Of a stretch of 64,000 nt of DNA, positions 35,028-63,638 are shown one piece after another. Made by a program: the position numbers and the translations under genes. This DNA comes from Rhynchonema sp. JSB1_4 (taxonomy: Eukaryota; Nematoda; Chromadorea; Monhysterida; Xyalidae). Each line of letters begins with the position of its first letter. The stretch's first letter is position 1. Where the stretch lies: NCBI GenBank assembly GCA_030248065.1, contig JASAMV010007643.1, positions 1 to 64,000 on the forward strand, in the 5' to 3' direction. Under the pieces are notes generated by a model, which was given only the letters and a program-made list of their open reading frames with translations, was not told where the DNA came from and searched no databases.

Positions 35028-37190
35028 TTCCAAAGCTAAGGGGTAAAGCACCCAGTTTCTGACTTTTTCACTGCTGTATTACTGTGGTCTGGCGAATAGA
35101 CACACACCGCGTATTACGAGCCCGAGAATATTATATGTACTGTACGCTGTCCGCATGTGGTTATTCAAATTTTTTGCATTACCGTAACCCGTTTTCACAA
35201 CCATTCCCGCGCGTCGGTTTTCTGTGCTGTGGCAGCCCCTCATCTCACCCAATAGCATGTTGCGTGTTCTTGCGTTGTGTATGCTGTGTCTGTGTTACAT
35301 GTTCATGTCCATTATGTATTCTGTGTGTGTGCAATCTGTGAATGTGAATGGTTTAGCAACTAAACACAAATTTGATGAATTGATCGTGCATTGTGCAACG
35401 TCCGAGCCCCGACCCGATGTGCTGTGCGTCCAAGAAACCAAGTTGGACGATCAATCATGTGACGATTTCAAGATCCCAAATTATCGATTCCTCGCCAGGA
35501 ACCGAACTCAGCACGGTGGTGGTGTCGGGGTTTACATTAAGAACAGTCACAACCCATACATGATGCCTGTCAAAATTCCTGATAATCTAGAAATTCTGCC
35601 CGTCGCCTACACGATTGCCGGGGTCAAGTGCTGTGTGATCACCGTGTACAAGCCGTCGTCATGCAACAACGCCACGTTTGTCGATGGACTCAGTACGGTA
35701 TTGGCTTTGGTGTCACAAACAGGAAAGTTTGACAACATTATTGTTTCGGGTGACGTAAACATGTGTGCTTTGGTGCCAGCTGAGTTCAAAAACCTGGAAA
35801 ACACTCTCAAACAATACAATCTTGCCCAGGTCATCACTGAACCGACTCATAAGGGTCGGTTAATTGATGTTACATTCGTGCCTGACCATCTGGCGGTACA
35901 ATACGAACTCCTTGCACCAATCGAAAACCACCATCACATGACATCAATAACATTCGATATTTCCAGCACCCAGTCTCCATCCGACGCTCCGCTGCGCCGT
36001 GTCTGGCAGTACAAGAAGGCCGACTGGGACTTGATGAACAGTTTGCTCATCGTCTACAACCTGGTAAAACAGGTCGTTGATGCAGTAGACGTCAATCAGG
36101 CCTGGGACGCAATCAGTCAAACAATCGTTGGTGCTGCTGCGAAAGCCATTCCTGCCCGATCCGCTCGCCCAAGACCACAGAATGACCAGCCGTGGGTGAC
36201 GCCGAAGGTCAAGCGGCTCAGTCGGAAGAAGAGCGATCTGCACAGGAAGTGGAAACAGACCGGTGACAAAGGAACGTATGAAAAGTACTTTGTTTTGCGT
36301 GAGCAGTCAAGGCAGGCCAACAGGGCAGCCAGACGTGACTATGCCATCAAAACGTTTGGTAAAATAGCTCATCTGTCTGACTACTGGCAAAAGCTGAATA
36401 AGTACACGGGACGGAGCAACACAGAACAAGTGTCTCTGGCCAACACCGATGGGGAGTGCGTTGCTGACAGTGCTGGTTTGGCTGCACTGTTATCAACACA
36501 TTTCTCCAGTGTATGGAACGTCAATGACGTTGAGGCACTGGTTCTGAACTCAACCGGTCCCGTGCCACCCGAATGGTACACTGATGTTTCACACGTGCTT
36601 TACAGTCTCATCACAGCCGACCCTCGCAAGGCCAGTGGCATCGATGGCATCACCGGCGAAATGCTCAAGAACTGTGCCCACGTGATCGCTCCGGCTCTCG
36701 CTGTGCTCATCAATCGATCGATAGACGAACACACGTGGCCGTCGGGTTGGAAACGGGCCGTTGTCACTGCCGTGCCGAAAGTCAAGACCCCTCAAAACCC
36801 ATCGGACTTCCGCCCCATCTCAAAATTACCGCTGTGCTCAAAAATCGCTGAGAAGCACATTCGAAACATCCTGAACGGGTTCATTGCCCCCAAACTCTCA
36901 GAAACGCAGTTCGGTTTTCGTGGAGGTCGGTCTACAACTGAGGCCCTGTTGCATTTCAATACTACAATCACTCGTGCTCTTGATGTTTCAAATTCTGTTG
37001 TTGCTGTGTATTTTGATGTTCGAAAGGCTTTCGATACCGTTCCTCACAATCTATTATTGCGTGTGTTACAAGACGATTTCAATGTTCCACCCGATTTATT
37101 GTTGTTGATTCAATCCTATTTGTCTGATCGAACCCAATGTGTGAATGTAAATGGTGTGTGTGTGATCCTGAACCGCCACACCAAACGTAT

Positions 37191-37272
37191 GCTCCCGGAA
37201 GGACTCGAACCTCCGACCTCCCAGCCACCAGGCCTGGATAGCCAGTTGCTCTACCAACTGAGCTACGGGAAC
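37191..37272 (-). other. tRNA-like sequence inside LTR (copy in retrotransposon)
   Basis: 82 bases with a 7-bp acceptor stem (GTTCCCG/CGGGAGC), D arm GCTC-AGTTGGTA-GAGC and T arm GGAGG-TTCGAGT-CCTTC. A box TAGCTCAGTTGG and B box GGTTCGAGTCC match pol III consensus. The anticodon arm is irregular and about 10 bases too long, so no isotype can be given. Confidence 0.75.
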
Positions 37273-37584
37273 GCGGTCTGGTTGCGGCTCAGAATCACTC
37301 ATAAACCCAACGCACGCACGCTCAATACACAGTGCACTACCGCAGCACACACACATAATACCGGTCCGTTCGTTATACGCCTCGACGCGTATGGGTGTGT
37401 GTCTATTCGCCAGACCACATCACCTCCCGTTCTCGGAAGTTCCGACCGCGGAACACAACGTCACGCACCCTCCTCCACTCGAGAAGGTTCGGTTCGTTTC
37501 ATCCGACCCGGCTCCACGCCGCTATCGGACTATCACGTCATCGGCTCACCACTTGTGAACTCTGAACCGCCACACCAAACGTAT

Positions 37585-37666
37585 GCTCCCGGAAGGACTC
37601 GAACCTCCGACCTCCCAGCCACCAGGCCTGGATAGCCAGTTGCTCTACCAACTGAGCTACGGGAAC
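37585..37666 (-). other. tRNA-like sequence inside LTR (second copy in retrotransposon)
   Basis: Same 82-base tRNA-like sequence as 37191-37272, in the other LTR of the same element. Confidence 0.75.
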
Positions 37667-39126
37667 GCGGTCTGGCTGCGGTTTAGAATCACTCATAAAC
37701 CCAACGCACGCACGCTCAATACACAGTGCACTACCGCAGCACACACACATAATACCGGTCCGTTCGTTATACGCCTCGACGCGTATGGGTGTGTGTCTAT
37801 TCGCCAGACCACATGTGTTCTGATTTCTTGTCTGTTCTCTCTGGTGTGCCGCAGGGCAGTGTATTAGGACCGTTATTGTTTCTCGCATACGTCAACTCTG
37901 TTGCAAAACTGCATTTCTCTCCGTGTTCTCGCATTATTCTCTATGCTGATGATCTGGTACTGATTCACTTCATGTGTACACCTGACTGTGAAAAGCATTT
38001 GCAAGAGGATGTGAACTTGATTGTCGAGCACTTCTCCAAACACAAACTTCTCTCCATTAATTCTACCAAAACAAAACTTCAACAATTTGCTCGCTCAAGT
38101 TCATGTCCCGCTGTCCCTGCTATTGTGATTGATGAATGTCTGATTGATGTTGTCGATGCAAACAAATATCTGGGTGCTGTTATTGATTCCAAGTTTGATT
38201 TTGGTCTGCATACTACTGCCACGTCTGTGAAAGTGAAGAAAATTGCTGGTTCATTGTACCGTACCTTTCGTAATGATCTACCTGTGTCTGTCATGCGTTA
38301 TCTGTATCAAACCTTGATTTGCTCTGTCATGTACTATTCGTGTGAGGTGACCTATCCTATTCATGACTATTCACGTAATTTGTTGGAAAGAACACAAAAA
38401 TCCATTATTCGCATGTTCTCTGGCAATTATGATCGGTCTGTGTCATATTCGCAGTTGTGTTCAATGTTTGGTGTTGATTATGTGGGTGTCACTGTCATGA
38501 AACGTCGTCTGAGATTGATGCATTCTTATGTTCTTGGTATTCGTGCTGCTCCTGTTGACTCTATTTCGTTCATTTCTGATTCCAATTCTCGCTCCAGTTC
38601 TCGTCTTAATCATTCTCGTGCCATTTGTATCCCACGTGCTAAAACTCATATTCTCGCTACCAGTGCTATTGTTATCATGTCCCATCTTTACAATGCTTTA
38701 CCTGATTTTGCTGTTTTCCTGCGAATGGGCACATTCAAAGGAGTCATTCGTTCGCAAAGCTTGATTGTTGAATTGTTGTACAAATTGCGATTGCTGCCAG
38801 TGAAATTTATTCCGTCCGTGTGTGAAATGTAATTGACCGATCATGCTGTGTTTCTGTGTTTTCTGTGTTTTTTTGCTCCTTATCATCATCTACATCTCTC
38901 GATCCGTAACTATCCACTGGCCCACTAAACACCTGTAATTGTTTATGGTTTCGTCGTTACTGTCCAGCTTATGCGTGTTGTTGACGTTACCATGTTGCTT
39001 CTGATGCAATAAAACTTGAACTTGTTTCGTCCCTGCAGCGTAACGTTCGGAGAAAATCGGGTGTGTGCGCTGCGGTGCACTGCGTATCGTTCGGTTTATG
39101 AAGTGGTTAGTACGGCCAATGAGCTC

Positions 39127-39195
39127 GCTCCTGTAGCTCTGTTGGTAGAGCGCCTGGCCGGTTGGGAGGTCGGAGGTTCGAGTCCTCTCAGGAAC
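39127..39195 (+). other. Shorter tRNA-like sequence in the divergent solo LTR
   Basis: 69 bases: acceptor GCTCCTG/CAGGAAC with one mismatch, D arm GCTC-TGTTGGTA-GAGC, B box GGTTCGAGTCC. The anticodon region is 13 bases shorter than in the 82-base LTR copies and lacks a regular stem. It could be mistaken for a tRNA gene, but its LTR context argues for a mobile-element part. Confidence 0.65.
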
Positions 39196-39220
39196 ATTGT
39201 TTGGCGGTCGCAAGTCGACA

Positions 39221-43600: not shown

Positions 43601-46600
43601 GTCAGTTGAGAGGGTAAGTGAGAGCCAGTGAGAAGTGAAAGGAGTAAGCAGAGCAAATAACATCATGGTGAAGGGAGTGAAGAGTCCATGGTTAGAGGGT
43701 CAGGTGCAAGAGGGTCATGTTAAGAGGGTCAGGTGAAGGGGGTCAGTGAAGAGGGCCAGTGAAAGGTATGGTGAAGAGGGTCAGGTGAAGAGAGTCATGG
43801 TTAAAGGGTCAGGTAAGAGGGTCATTTAAGAGGGTCAGGTGAAAGTCATGAGAAAGGTCCAGGAACAGTCATGGTGCAAAAGTATGGTGAAAGGGCAGGT
43901 GAAACTATGGTGAAGGGTCAGTAAGATGGTCCGCAGCGCGCAACCTTTATTTTTTTGAAAAGAGGTTTCAACATGACTTACAACAACTGAGAAATACATT
44001 TGCTGAGGCATCGTGCTTGGCGTTTAAAGGGTCGGGAATAACCGAAGAAGAGCAACAATGTAATACTGGAAAGCATTCCAAGCCTAGAACGAAAATAAGC
44101 TCTTGGAGATTCGACTCTTGGTAGCGGATTTTTAGTTCAGAAAAAACGAATTTTTAGATTTTTGCCCTAAAATGAGTTCTTGTAGGTTCACACTCACATT
44201 TTCAGAGTAGAAATTTATTAACCGGCACATGCATAAATGCACAGAGATTATCTCGATAGAATCAAATTCATTGCTCTAATCCAATACAAGGTCTGGATAA
44301 AGTCACTTTTGTTCCACTGGAGATGAATTTCTGAAAAATTAGAAAACTTTGGGTCAGGTAGTTACAGGGCTGCTAGGCAAAGTGAGCATGTGTTGTGCCA
44401 GACATCTATACTTTTGTTTAATCCCACAACTCGAAAACTAAGAGATTCGTTATTTTGGCGCGCCTGACACCACAACAAGACAATGCGAATGGTATTTCAG
44501 GACAATCTTGGAAAGAACAAAAGACGCAAATTTATGTTAAACAAAAGTATAGCCGCAGACAGAGTTCCGGGTGCAATTCCAGGCTGAAGTTGAAGTCGGC
44601 GCGCGGCAGACTTCCTAGTACAAAACATAGTCAGCGGCAGCGCACGCGCAAAACACCGCGCACCGAGTTTCGACTTTGGCCTATACTTTGCACTGTTTCC
44701 ACGCCGCACGCACTCAGCTTTCAGCCTAAATTGCACCCGGACTGACCCAAATTTAAGCGCCAAGCACAATGTAGCCTCGCCCCTGCCAGACCCTCACACA
44801 GGACCGTGCACCAGACCCTCTTGCACCAGACCCTCTCACCAGACCCTCCCATGCCCTCTGCACCATGACCCTCTTGCACAGACCGGTTGCACCAGACCTC
44901 TCACCAGACCCTCTCACCAACCGCACCAACCCTCTCACCAGACCCTCTTGCACCATGGCCCTCTTGCACACCCTTACACAGACCGCCAAGACCCTGCACG
45001 GACCCTCCTGCAACTGACCTGTTGCTTCTGGACCCTGACAACCTCCCTTGAAAATACCGTTGCACGGACCCTCTTGCACGCTACCCTTACACTGACCCTC
45101 TTGTCACGCAACCCCCGAAGACCCGTTAGCATACCATAAGCTACCCGTGAAAATTGCCCCGTCCGCACCTCCGAGGGAGGGGGCCACAGACAGACGTACA
45201 CACATACGTCTTCCTGTTTTAGTAGTATAGATTATACGTACACAAACGGTGGACAGCGTGTGAAACATCAGCTTTACACATAGTTTGGCCGGAAATGGCA
45301 CTCGTCGAGCATTGTCTTATTCTCCGGCTCTGGCTTGGACGTAAGGTTGGGCTTATGTTTGGGATTTGGATAAACTTGCAGATCGGTTCAGGCTCTTCAC
45401 ACAATTCTGTTGTAACAATGCGCACCAGAATTTCACAATCAACTTTTTGACCGACTTGTTCCCATCTTCGAAATAGCTTGTTTATGAATGAAAGCTCGTA
45501 GTTTCACACCAGTGACTCGATGAATTTTTACACACCTGCAGATTGACGTGCGAATGATAGCCGATCGGTATCGATATCGGATTATTCTCCAACATCGCGT
45601 CCATCGGACTCATGTACATGTGCAACGCGAATTCGTTGTAGGAATTGTAGGCCGTATTGAATAGACGACGATTCGGGTACCAGTACACGAAGCCGAAACC
45701 ACCGACCGGTCCTGAAGGTTCATTCCATCCAAGTAAAGCATATTTTGACAATTTTTTAAGACGCACAAGAAAGGGGTGACAATAAATGAGCAAACTGACC
45801 TGGCAGTCGCTGTTTTCGTTTGCTGACGAATTCGAAACAGGATCCGGAATGTGCGAGCAGCCGACGCACCTCCATGAACGGATTCTTGCGACAACACGGA
45901 AACACCAGGCCGTTCTCGAACCAGCACATCAGGAACTGGTATTCGCAATCGAACATCACATCCTGAACGACATGTGTCTGCCGTTTGTGATCACATTTTT
46001 GTGCGATATGTAGCAGCGAAGGTTCTTACATTCTCGGGATGGGATATGATAGTCGCATCACATCAATGTGATCGAATCGAACTACCTGCTCACACTGATG
46101 GGATCGGTCTTGGCAGTCACATAACGTGATGTGATCGGATCCACTGTAGTCACATCACATCAACAACGTGACTAGTTATTCCGGTCCGATTACACTGATG
46201 TGATGTGACTAGGTAGACCGATTTGATCTGACCACATCCGATCACCAAGTCGACGTGATTGTGCAAACTTACAACCTTGGTAGTATCAAGATCAGGGTAA
46301 GCTACTGAGTCCATTTTAGAATGGAGGTTCTCGGAGTTTCCATTCCTTCTTCTGGCGCCCTATTTTGATATTGGTCGCACAAACAAAAAAAATTTTCCAA
46401 AAAAAAAACCCAAAAAATCCCTAAAATAAAAAACAAAAAACAAAAAATACCGAAACACTGTTACCGTGACTAGTCCGGACCTTGCAAGGCGGCCGAAAAA
46501 ATCTTTAGGTTGCAATTCGAGAACTTGGCTAATGAAGCATACCGTGAGCATTCTAGTCACATTCCTGTGTCCTATTGTCTCGAATAGCTCCTCCTGTAAA

Positions 46601-51596: not shown

Positions 51597-55568
<3,972 letters not shown>

Positions 55569-62125: not shown

Positions 62126-62346
62126 CTGGAAATAGAGTCGTCTGATAAGAATGCACCTCCGTAGACCGGACTAAATGGTGCCATCTATCTGAAGCGTACT
62201 ACTGTGGTCTGGCGAATAGACACACTCCCATGCGCGTCGAGGCGTATAACGAACGGACCGGTATTATGTGTGTGTGCTGCGGTGCACTGTGTATTGAGTG
62301 TGCGTGCGTTGGGTTTATGAGTGATTCTGAGCCGCAGCCAGACCGC

Positions 62347-62428
62347 GTTCCCGTAGCTCAGTTGGTAGAGCAACTGGGTATCCAGGCCTGGTGGCTGGGA
62401 GGTCGGAGGTTCGAGTCCTTCCGGGAGC
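62347..62428 (+). other. tRNA-like sequence in LTR 1
   Basis: 82 bases with acceptor stem GTTCCCG/CGGGAGC, D and T arms and consensus A and B boxes. One base differs from the other copies in the anticodon region (GGGTATCC). Not followed by a TTTT terminator within 15 bases. Confidence 0.75.
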
Positions 62429-62737
62429 ATACGTTTGGTGTGGCGGTTCAGAGTTCACAAGTGGTGAGCCGATGACGTGATAGTCCGATAGCGGCGTGGA
62501 GCCCGGTCGTATGAAACGAACCGAACCTTCTCGAGTGGAGGAGGGTGCGTGACGTTGTGTTCCGCGGTCGGAACTTCCGAGAACGGGAGGTGATGTGGTC
62601 TGGCGAATAGACACGCTCCCATACGCGTCGAGGCGTATAACGAACGGACCGGTATTATGTGTGTGTGCTGCGGTGCACTGTGTATTGAGTGTGCGTGCGT
62701 TGGGTTTATGAGTGATTCTGAGCCGCAGCCAGACCGC

Positions 62738-62819
62738 GTTCCCGTAGCTCAGTTGGTAGAGCAACTGGCTATCCTGGCCTGGTGGCTGGGAGGTCGGAGG
62801 TTCGAGTCCTTCCGGGAGC
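62738..62819 (+). other. tRNA-like sequence in LTR 2
   Basis: Same tRNA-like sequence; reads CTATCCTGGCC where the others have CTATCCAGGCC. Confidence 0.75.
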
Positions 62820-63127
62820 ATATGTTTGGTGTGGCGGTTCAGGATCACAAGTGGTGAGCCGATGACGTGATAGTCCGATTGCGGCGTGGAGCCGGGTCGG
62901 ATGAAACGAACTGAACCTTCTCGAGTGGAGGAGGGTGCGTGACGTTGTGTTCCGCGGTCGGAACTTCCGAGAACGGGAGGTGATGTGGTCTGGCGAATAG
63001 ACACACTCCCATACGCGTCGAGGCGTATAACGAACGGACCGGTATTATGTGTGTGTGCTGCGGTGCACTGTGTATTGAGTGTGCGTGCGTCGGGTTTATG
63101 AGTGATTCTGAGCCGCAGCCAGACCGC

Positions 63128-63209
63128 GTTCCCGTAGCTCAGTTGGTAGAGCAACTGGCTATCCAGGCCTGGTGGCTGGGAGGTCGGAGGTTCGAGTCCT
63201 TCCGGGAGC
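63128..63209 (+). other. tRNA-like sequence in LTR 3
   Basis: Same tRNA-like sequence, matching the consensus of the copies. Confidence 0.75.
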
Positions 63210-63522
63210 ATACGTTTGGTGTGGCGGTTCAGAGTTCACAAGTGGTGAGCCGATGACGTGATAGTCCGATAGCGGCGTGGAGCCGGGTCGTATGAAACGA
63301 ACCGAACCTTCTCGAGTGGAGGAGGGTGCGTGACGTTGTGTTCCGCGGTCGGAACTTCCGAGAACGGGAGGTGATGTGGTCTGGCGAATAGACACACTCC
63401 CATACGCGTCGAGGCGTACATATAACGAACGGACCGGTATTATGTGTGTGTGCTGCGGTGCACTGTGTATTGAGTGTGCGTGCGTTGGGTTTATGAGTGA
63501 TTCTGAGCCGCAGCCAGACCGC

Positions 63523-63604
63523 GTTCCCGTAGCTCAGTTGGTAGAGCAACTGGCTATCCAGGCCTGGTGGCTGGGAGGTCGGAAGTTCGAGTCCTTCCGG
63601 GAGC
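63523..63604 (+). other. tRNA-like sequence in LTR 4
   Basis: Same tRNA-like sequence with one change in the T stem (GGAAG for GGAGG). Confidence 0.75.
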
Positions 63605-63638
63605 ATACGTTTGGTGTGGCAGTTCAGGATCACACTAC

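Follow-up and report, generated by a model that had tools for sequence, protein, structure and literature searches.

Helenus-like miniature LTR retrotransposons with tRNA-like LTR sequences, single and in tandem array, in Rhynchonema sp. JSB1_4

The window analysed here, a stretch of 64,000 nucleotides of DNA from the nematode Rhynchonema sp. JSB1_4, carries at 62203-63634 a tandem array of a miniature LTR retrotransposon (TRIM) with a tRNA-like sequence in every LTR, and the described features alone give good support for placing this array in Helenus, no tested feature having failed. Helenus comprises TRIMs with tRNA-derived sequence in the LTR and has been reported from six animal phyla as well as from fungi and a single plant (Kojima 2024, PMC10886601). 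The initial annotation of this DNA, which knew of no animal TRIM with a tRNA-like LTR, was therefore wrong on this point, and its claim of novelty fails because Helenus had already been described in 2024. Across the genome we found scattered LTR-internal-LTR insertions with 4-bp duplications, as produced by an integrase. Taken as a whole, we regard it as very likely that these elements are best explained as integrase-inserted TRIMs which use RNA polymerase III (Pol III), are served by a larger partner and are joined into arrays by additional steps.

Structure of the array and its two families

On the plus strand the array reads LTR-internal-LTR-internal-LTR-internal-LTR, and Tandem Repeats Finder returned exactly 62203-63634 as a single repeat (period 391, 3.7 copies, 97% matches), which together with our reading of the LTRs and internal pieces confirms the miniature LTR retrotransposon in tandem array proposed in the initial annotation. 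Reading the sequence also bore out its four repeats of 256-260 bp with TGTG...CACA ends and three 134-bp pieces: LTR 1, of family 1, occupies 62203-62459 (257 bp), LTR 2 62594-62849 (256 bp), LTR 3 62984-63240 (257 bp) and LTR 4 63375-63634 (260 bp), separated by internal pieces of 134 bp apiece at 62460-62593, 62850-62983 and 63241-63374. The exact CTAC duplications named as boundaries are present at 62199-62202 and 63635-63638, on either side of the whole array, as one outer duplication supported by the sequence and by the duplication count given below. In the first internal piece, the primer-binding-site region TGGTGAGCC..ACGTGAT lies at 62462-62481 (plus strand); the primer-site-like start noticed earlier is thus real, but this form (variant A) holds two extra bases compared with the canonical tRNA-Trp site TGGTGAGCCCGACGTG. 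The canonical site opens 17 of 54 family-1 internal pieces, the two-base-longer site 36 (all three array pieces included) and another variant the last one. By inspection, the internal piece also has the purine tract attributed to it, GAGAACGGGAGGTGA, located ahead of LTR 2 at 62579-62593 on the plus strand.

The LTR start motif occurs 359 times genome-wide (up to two mismatches, families 1 and 2 together), compared with 0 for a reversed control. Of 913 initial LTR candidates in the genome searches 40 were scored, as were 40 of 83 candidates for the internal piece, and the loci examined comprised 53 of family 1, i.e., every listed place, and 20 of family 2, the latter covering 20 of 30 other listed contigs, with one more of the 30, L020, already in the sample; as these loci are the best matches, the sample leans towards young copies. 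Including the window, they contain 61 family-1 and 26 family-2 clusters (87 in all). Among the family-1 clusters, which are scattered over contigs, 25 are LTR-internal-LTR elements and 11 are single complete LTRs, the rest being arrays or truncated forms. Families 1 and 2 agree in LTR start, primer site and tRNA-like promoter region, and differ widely in other parts of the LTR. The family-2 copy L066, for example, measures 271 + 158 + 271 bp, and the family-2 purine tract reads GGGAGGGGGGTAG by inspection. LTR pairs of single elements are 96.9-100% alike in family 1 (median 99.2%, 6 of 25 identical) and have a median identity of 100% in family 2 (5 of 9 identical). A diverged relative of the family-2 LTR at L068:685-814, with 80% identity to the window copy and a broken tRNA-like part, perhaps represents an older layer of this lineage.

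For counting target-site duplications, 58 of the 87 clusters had a complete LTR at both ends (29 excluded), and dropping three with an unreadable end motif left 55 complete copies. Exact 4-bp duplications flank 43 of these 55, none of which extends to 5 bp, compared with a mean of 1.4 and a maximum of 7 (of 55) in a shuffled control, and 12 copies have no exact duplication. Taking into account that some copies share their left flanks (L041 twice, L058 and L059; L044 and L045), duplications are found at 40 of the 51 sites that are distinct. Broken down by type of copy, they occur in family 1 at 20 of 25 single copies, 10 of 11 solo LTRs and one of three arrays, and in family 2 at 8 of 8 single copies and 4 of 8 solo LTRs. 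A genome-wide pattern of copies without LTR-internal-LTR structure or duplications, which the initial annotation had named as refuting its reading, was absent at the loci examined.

A second family-1 copy in the window, which like the split family-2 LTR around it does not appear in the initial annotation, provides a view of a single insertion. This LTR-internal-LTR element of 653 bp (37161-37813, minus strand) is inserted in the open frame of a LINE and flanked by TGTG at 37157-37160 and 37814-37817 (plus strand; CACA in element orientation). When 37161-37813 is deleted together with one duplication, the interrupted LINE frame (35224-38832) is open over 983 aa instead of 803, and the rejoined protein aligns across the junction with all five relatives compared, as predicted by a clean integrase-mediated insertion. 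The LINE itself splits a family-2 LTR on the plus strand, whose 5' part lies at 35083-35159 (right boundary approximate) and whose 3' part at 39029-39220 includes a tRNA-like sequence at 39127-39196 (44.2 bits against Rfam tRNA); the outer flanks of this LTR, TTAC and TTGC, match at three of four positions. This nesting gives the order of insertion as family 2, LINE, family 1.

Besides these elements, the window has an (AC) repeat of about 141 units at 52441-52723, overlapping an ORF at 52432-53067 on the minus strand (metallopeptidase-like, with a HEIGH motif), and two minisatellites about 0.9 kb apart, at 43694-43843 and 44786-44948 with 14- and 13-bp units, whose motifs look like mutual reverse complements. 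In mitochondrial COX1, conserved sites read TGA as W (11/11), AAA as K (4/4), AGA as S (3/4) and ATA as M (7/9), a pattern that resembles the invertebrate mitochondrial code and speaks against flatworms, tunicates and vertebrates. Within the 120 best COX1 matches, identity is at most 65% to proteins that carry a taxon name (arthropods for the most part, plus an onychophoran and a nematode), and the top match of all reaches 76%. A receptor search had no match, and a search for nematode SL1 came up empty here and in the control genomes alike.

Formation of the arrays

Four arrays were compared, namely that of the window and those at L018, L043 and L050. Adjacent LTRs within arrays have a median identity of 97.7% (n=13). 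The two LTRs of a single element are more alike than this (median 99.2% over 25 pairs, p=0.0002), and LTRs taken from different insertions are indistinguishable in identity from adjacent array LTRs (median 98.0% over 4220 pairs, p=0.41), these p-values being rough because the pairs are not independent. With array LTR identities at the level found between insertions, the arrays appear to have been built from different copies joined through their LTRs. Moreover, three of the four arrays contain both primer-site types, that of the window having a single type. Both the identities and this mixing of types speak against tandem arrays arising solely by unequal exchange within one inserted element, an explanation that we consider unlikely even though three observations agree with it: the single outer duplication around the window array; the six-unit array at L043, in which LTR 2 equals LTR 4 and LTR 3 equals LTR 5 in an a-b-a-b order; and the complete-ended arrays at L043 and L050, which have no duplication, as fits rearrangement after insertion, and leave the window's as the one that does. 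That just one of these three arrays has a duplication also counts against a simple view of each array as a single insertion. The a-b-a-b order at L043 indicates that later unequal exchange took part there too, in addition to the apparent joining of different copies.

For plant tandem LTR elements, single insertions are argued for in the abstract of a 2025 report, the discussion of which calls single insertion and recombination both possible (PMC11899658), and both template switching and unequal crossing-over have been considered for the arrays of Cassandra (PMC7215508). At L020, a family-1 LTR-internal-LTR element is followed by AGAG and then a family-2 LTR, all inside one TACT duplication, which is a possible cross-family recombinant.

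tRNA-like sequence, primer and candidate partners

The tRNA-like sequences of the array lie at 62347-62429, 62738-62820, 63128-63210 and 63523-63605 (plus strand) in LTRs 1 to 4 and score 44.9, 46.3, 46.7 and 41.2 bits, all above the Rfam tRNA gathering cut-off of 29 bits, so that the tRNA-like fold ascribed to each LTR holds, with a length of 83 instead of the proposed 82 nt. Across the elements examined these sequences reach 41-52 bits, and among 4227 Rfam families compared with the window tRNA alone reached its gathering threshold, with no match to 5S rRNA. ARAGORN calls three of the array sequences tRNA-Gly and that of LTR 1 a tRNA without assigned amino acid, and for all six family-1 LTRs of the window five tRNA-Gly genes and one unassigned tRNA, which should serve as a warning for genome annotation. 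The A and B boxes had been reported as intact throughout; this applies to box A TAGCTCAGTTGG, unchanged in all four array LTRs, and to box B GGTTCGAGTCC in LTRs 1-3, while in LTR 4 its first G is replaced by A. Among 93 family-1 LTRs, the commonest box A string is present in 83 and the commonest box B string in 89. Folded as RNA, two of the array sequences exceed shuffled controls in stability (z -3.1 and -3.8), and the older family-2 copy at 39127 does not (z 0.2).

In both families the T stem is paired, and the acceptor stem is paired at 7 of 7 positions in 86 of 93 family-1 and 28 of 29 family-2 LTRs (three and one unparsed, respectively). Between the families, acceptor pair 6 has changed on both sides, being C-G in one and T-A in the other, and pair 2 has gone from T-G to T-A. 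The family-1 sequence is about 12 nt longer than its family-2 counterpart, the extra length lying in the anticodon region, and a working tRNA is unlikely because this region differs strongly between the families. Such a sequence is evidently not kept as a tRNA, which would suit a canonical TRIM transcribed by Pol II and carrying the tRNA-like stretch as a passenger SINE fragment without promoter role. We nevertheless judge this explanation quite improbable, as both families retain box A, box B and the paired acceptor and T stems while other LTR parts diverge, and the common poly(A) signals AATAAA and ATTAAA occur in 0 of 55 complete copies.

Two further readings of the array have next to no probability. 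A tRNA-derived SINE duplicated in tandem by chance would share the tRNA-like promoter region, the shortness and the interspersed spread; SINEs of this type are without LTRs or a tRNA primer site and are moved by LINEs, and the complete LTR-internal-LTR copies with TGTG...CACA ends, a tRNA-Trp primer site and duplications at 43 of 55 rule this origin out. A satellite array with an accidental LTR look would agree with the tandem layout and the six units at L043, and is likewise ruled out by the 25 single units and 11 solo LTRs among 61 family-1 clusters, which are scattered over contigs and carry duplications.

From what is established about Pol III promoters of the tRNA type, we infer that transcription would begin at about LTR position 145 and read through into the flank. 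None of the 55 complete copies contains TTTT, and we set aside the depletion of this motif as proof of Pol III, since dinucleotide shuffles are frequently free of it (37% in family 1 and 12% in family 2) and AAAA is missing from the copies likewise, making the absence of TTTT weak evidence for Pol III. The first TTTT downstream lies at a median distance of 54.5 over 54 copies, with a background of 92, both being descriptive figures.

The canonical primer site is complementary to the 3' end of tRNA-Trp, which makes this tRNA the likely primer type. Its motif (G or C at one place) occurs 124 times genome-wide, with 0 in the control, and has G in all 100 places listed. A tRNA-Trp gene of the host, the sole one found, is located at L093 (C286), and with CCA added it can pair with a family-2 copy and with L088, which has a family-1 LTR, at 17 of the initial 18 positions. 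At L090, 36 of 38 positions of the site are complementary to the host tRNA-Trp, the match extending via the T arm towards the anticodon arm, as would be expected if the tRNA itself had been copied into the element. The gene is off by one acceptor base, with T where the primer sites of the elements imply G, and a looser genome search found no further tRNA-Trp gene, whether with the expected G or otherwise. The longer variant of the primer site pairs with tRNA-Trp at 9 of 18 positions without gaps. By eye, in three of four aligned family-2 copies, L066 and L074 have the canonical site and L067 has the variant. L088 continues from its family-1 LTR end into a different internal piece, possibly a third internal variant, whose primer site complements the tRNA-Trp gene at 21 of 23 positions. 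When the 3' end of the tRNA-like sequence plus CCA is compared with the element's own primer site, pairing would cover TGGTG and a few further bases and then stop, as judged by eye and unscored.

Candidate autonomous partners were sought by comparing 100 of the 124 primer-motif places with 150 of 198 candidates for the integrase zinc-binding domain PF17921 within 12 kb. At least 15 of the 100 listed motif sites fall in examined TRIM loci. Eight of the 100 are followed on their own strand by a downstream integrase domain, at a distance of 8086-8096 bp in five of these eight (C1533, C1638, C3462, C1720 and C4090), compared with two upstream on the same strand, two downstream on the opposite strand and none upstream on the opposite strand. 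In addition, the leader at C1291 recurs with 76-78% identity at C1533, C1638, C1720 and C631, i.e., at four of the eight integrase sites, and the LTR end of C1291 reappears 12.5 kb further downstream, as found among the 40 scored of 47 candidates. Based on the excess of downstream integrases and the recurring leader, larger elements sharing the tRNA-Trp primer site very probably exist. The 4-bp duplications, the reports on animal Helenus (PMC10886601) and the CsRn1 lineage, which combines a tRNA-Trp site with 4-bp duplications (PMC3630058), lead us to expect a partner that would probably belong to the Gypsy superfamily. Past the primer site, the internal pieces of the TRIM are unlike both candidate leaders compared by eye. 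A 1.8-kb piece behind the site at C1107 holds a glutamine-rich frame that, judged by eye, may be gag; the C1107 LTR was dropped as a tRNA-free parent of the TRIM LTR, the piece read having no clear likeness to it by eye.

In the mechanism that we favour, Pol III would start close to where the tRNA-like sequence begins, at LTR position 145, which would assign positions 1-144 to U3 and 145-257 to R and U5. Given that no TTTT is present in the 55 complete copies, the transcript is expected to run past the first LTR and the internal piece, enter the second LTR and end at a T-run in the flanking DNA. Reverse transcriptase and integrase would be supplied by a larger element, probably of the Gypsy type, that has this tRNA-Trp site too, and the TRIM would be copied and inserted by them. 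Arrays may then result from LTR-mediated recombination between copies, either when cDNA recombines with a copy already in place or while reverse transcription is under way, followed in one array by what look like subsequent unequal exchanges. A more far-reaching version, in which a Helenus lineage in a phylum so far unlisted combines terminator-less Pol III transcription with arrays formed by recombination between copies, possibly during reverse transcription, and travels as mixed concatemers including L020, is a tentative suggestion that we put forward with considerable doubt.

Comparison with known systems

Among known systems, tRNA-derived SINEs resemble these elements in their internal tRNA-like promoter, but differ in having no LTRs and no tRNA primer site and in being mobilised by LINEs (PMC10886601). 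Cassandra shares with them a small-RNA promoter in the LTR and the occurrence of long tandem arrays (PMC7215508), whereas it is a plant element with 5S rRNA instead of a tRNA in its LTR, and its transcription ends in the 5S of the 3' LTR (PMC10886601), in contrast to the copies found here, which are without an internal T-run. Ajax of nemerteans is likewise a TRIM whose LTR contains a small-RNA promoter, yet it carries a partial 5S rRNA, has 5-bp duplications and uses a tRNA-Leu primer (PMC10886601). The CsRn1 lineage of Gypsy elements has a tRNA-Trp primer site and typically 4-bp duplications; it is autonomous, is marked by a CHCC gag motif and a GPY integrase motif, and is comparable only as a possible partner, with one example of 4.3 kb (PMC3630058) versus about 12.5 kb between the LTR ends of one of our candidates.

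The closest agreement is with Helenus, which is described as 311-1263 bp long, without proteins, and with the LTR motifs TRGCY..YGG for box A and GGTTC for box B (PMC10886601). The elements studied here are TRIMs of a few hundred bp, and the copies of 653 bp (family 1, window) and 271 + 158 + 271 bp (L066) lie within this range, being non-coding as judged by length alone. They also have a tRNA-derived sequence with boxes A and B in each LTR, a primer site, a purine tract (by inspection) and 4-bp duplications, the last of which are reported for animal Helenus as well, together with tandem arrays in LTR-11_DR (PMC10886601). According to the same source, the tRNA-like part of Helenus is not complementary to its own primer site, which is shared with autonomous Gypsy elements, and the primer is tRNA-Trp in some hymenopteran families and other tRNAs in vertebrates and bivalves; the use of Pol III is presented there as inferred and not experimentally validated. 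PMC12859917 mentions this work, and a search by title and beginning of abstract, covering few subscription papers, yielded no account of tRNA-bearing TRIMs besides PMC10886601. Arrays made up of different copies, as those found here appear to be, are not mentioned in the available text of PMC10886601.

Helenus was defined from consensus sequences (2024). The present analysis adds two Helenus-like families, a likely primer, candidate partners and signs of arrays that join different copies. With young copies, two sister families, candidate partners and a type of primer tRNA at hand, the transcription and mobilisation of Helenus-like elements become testable in this genome.
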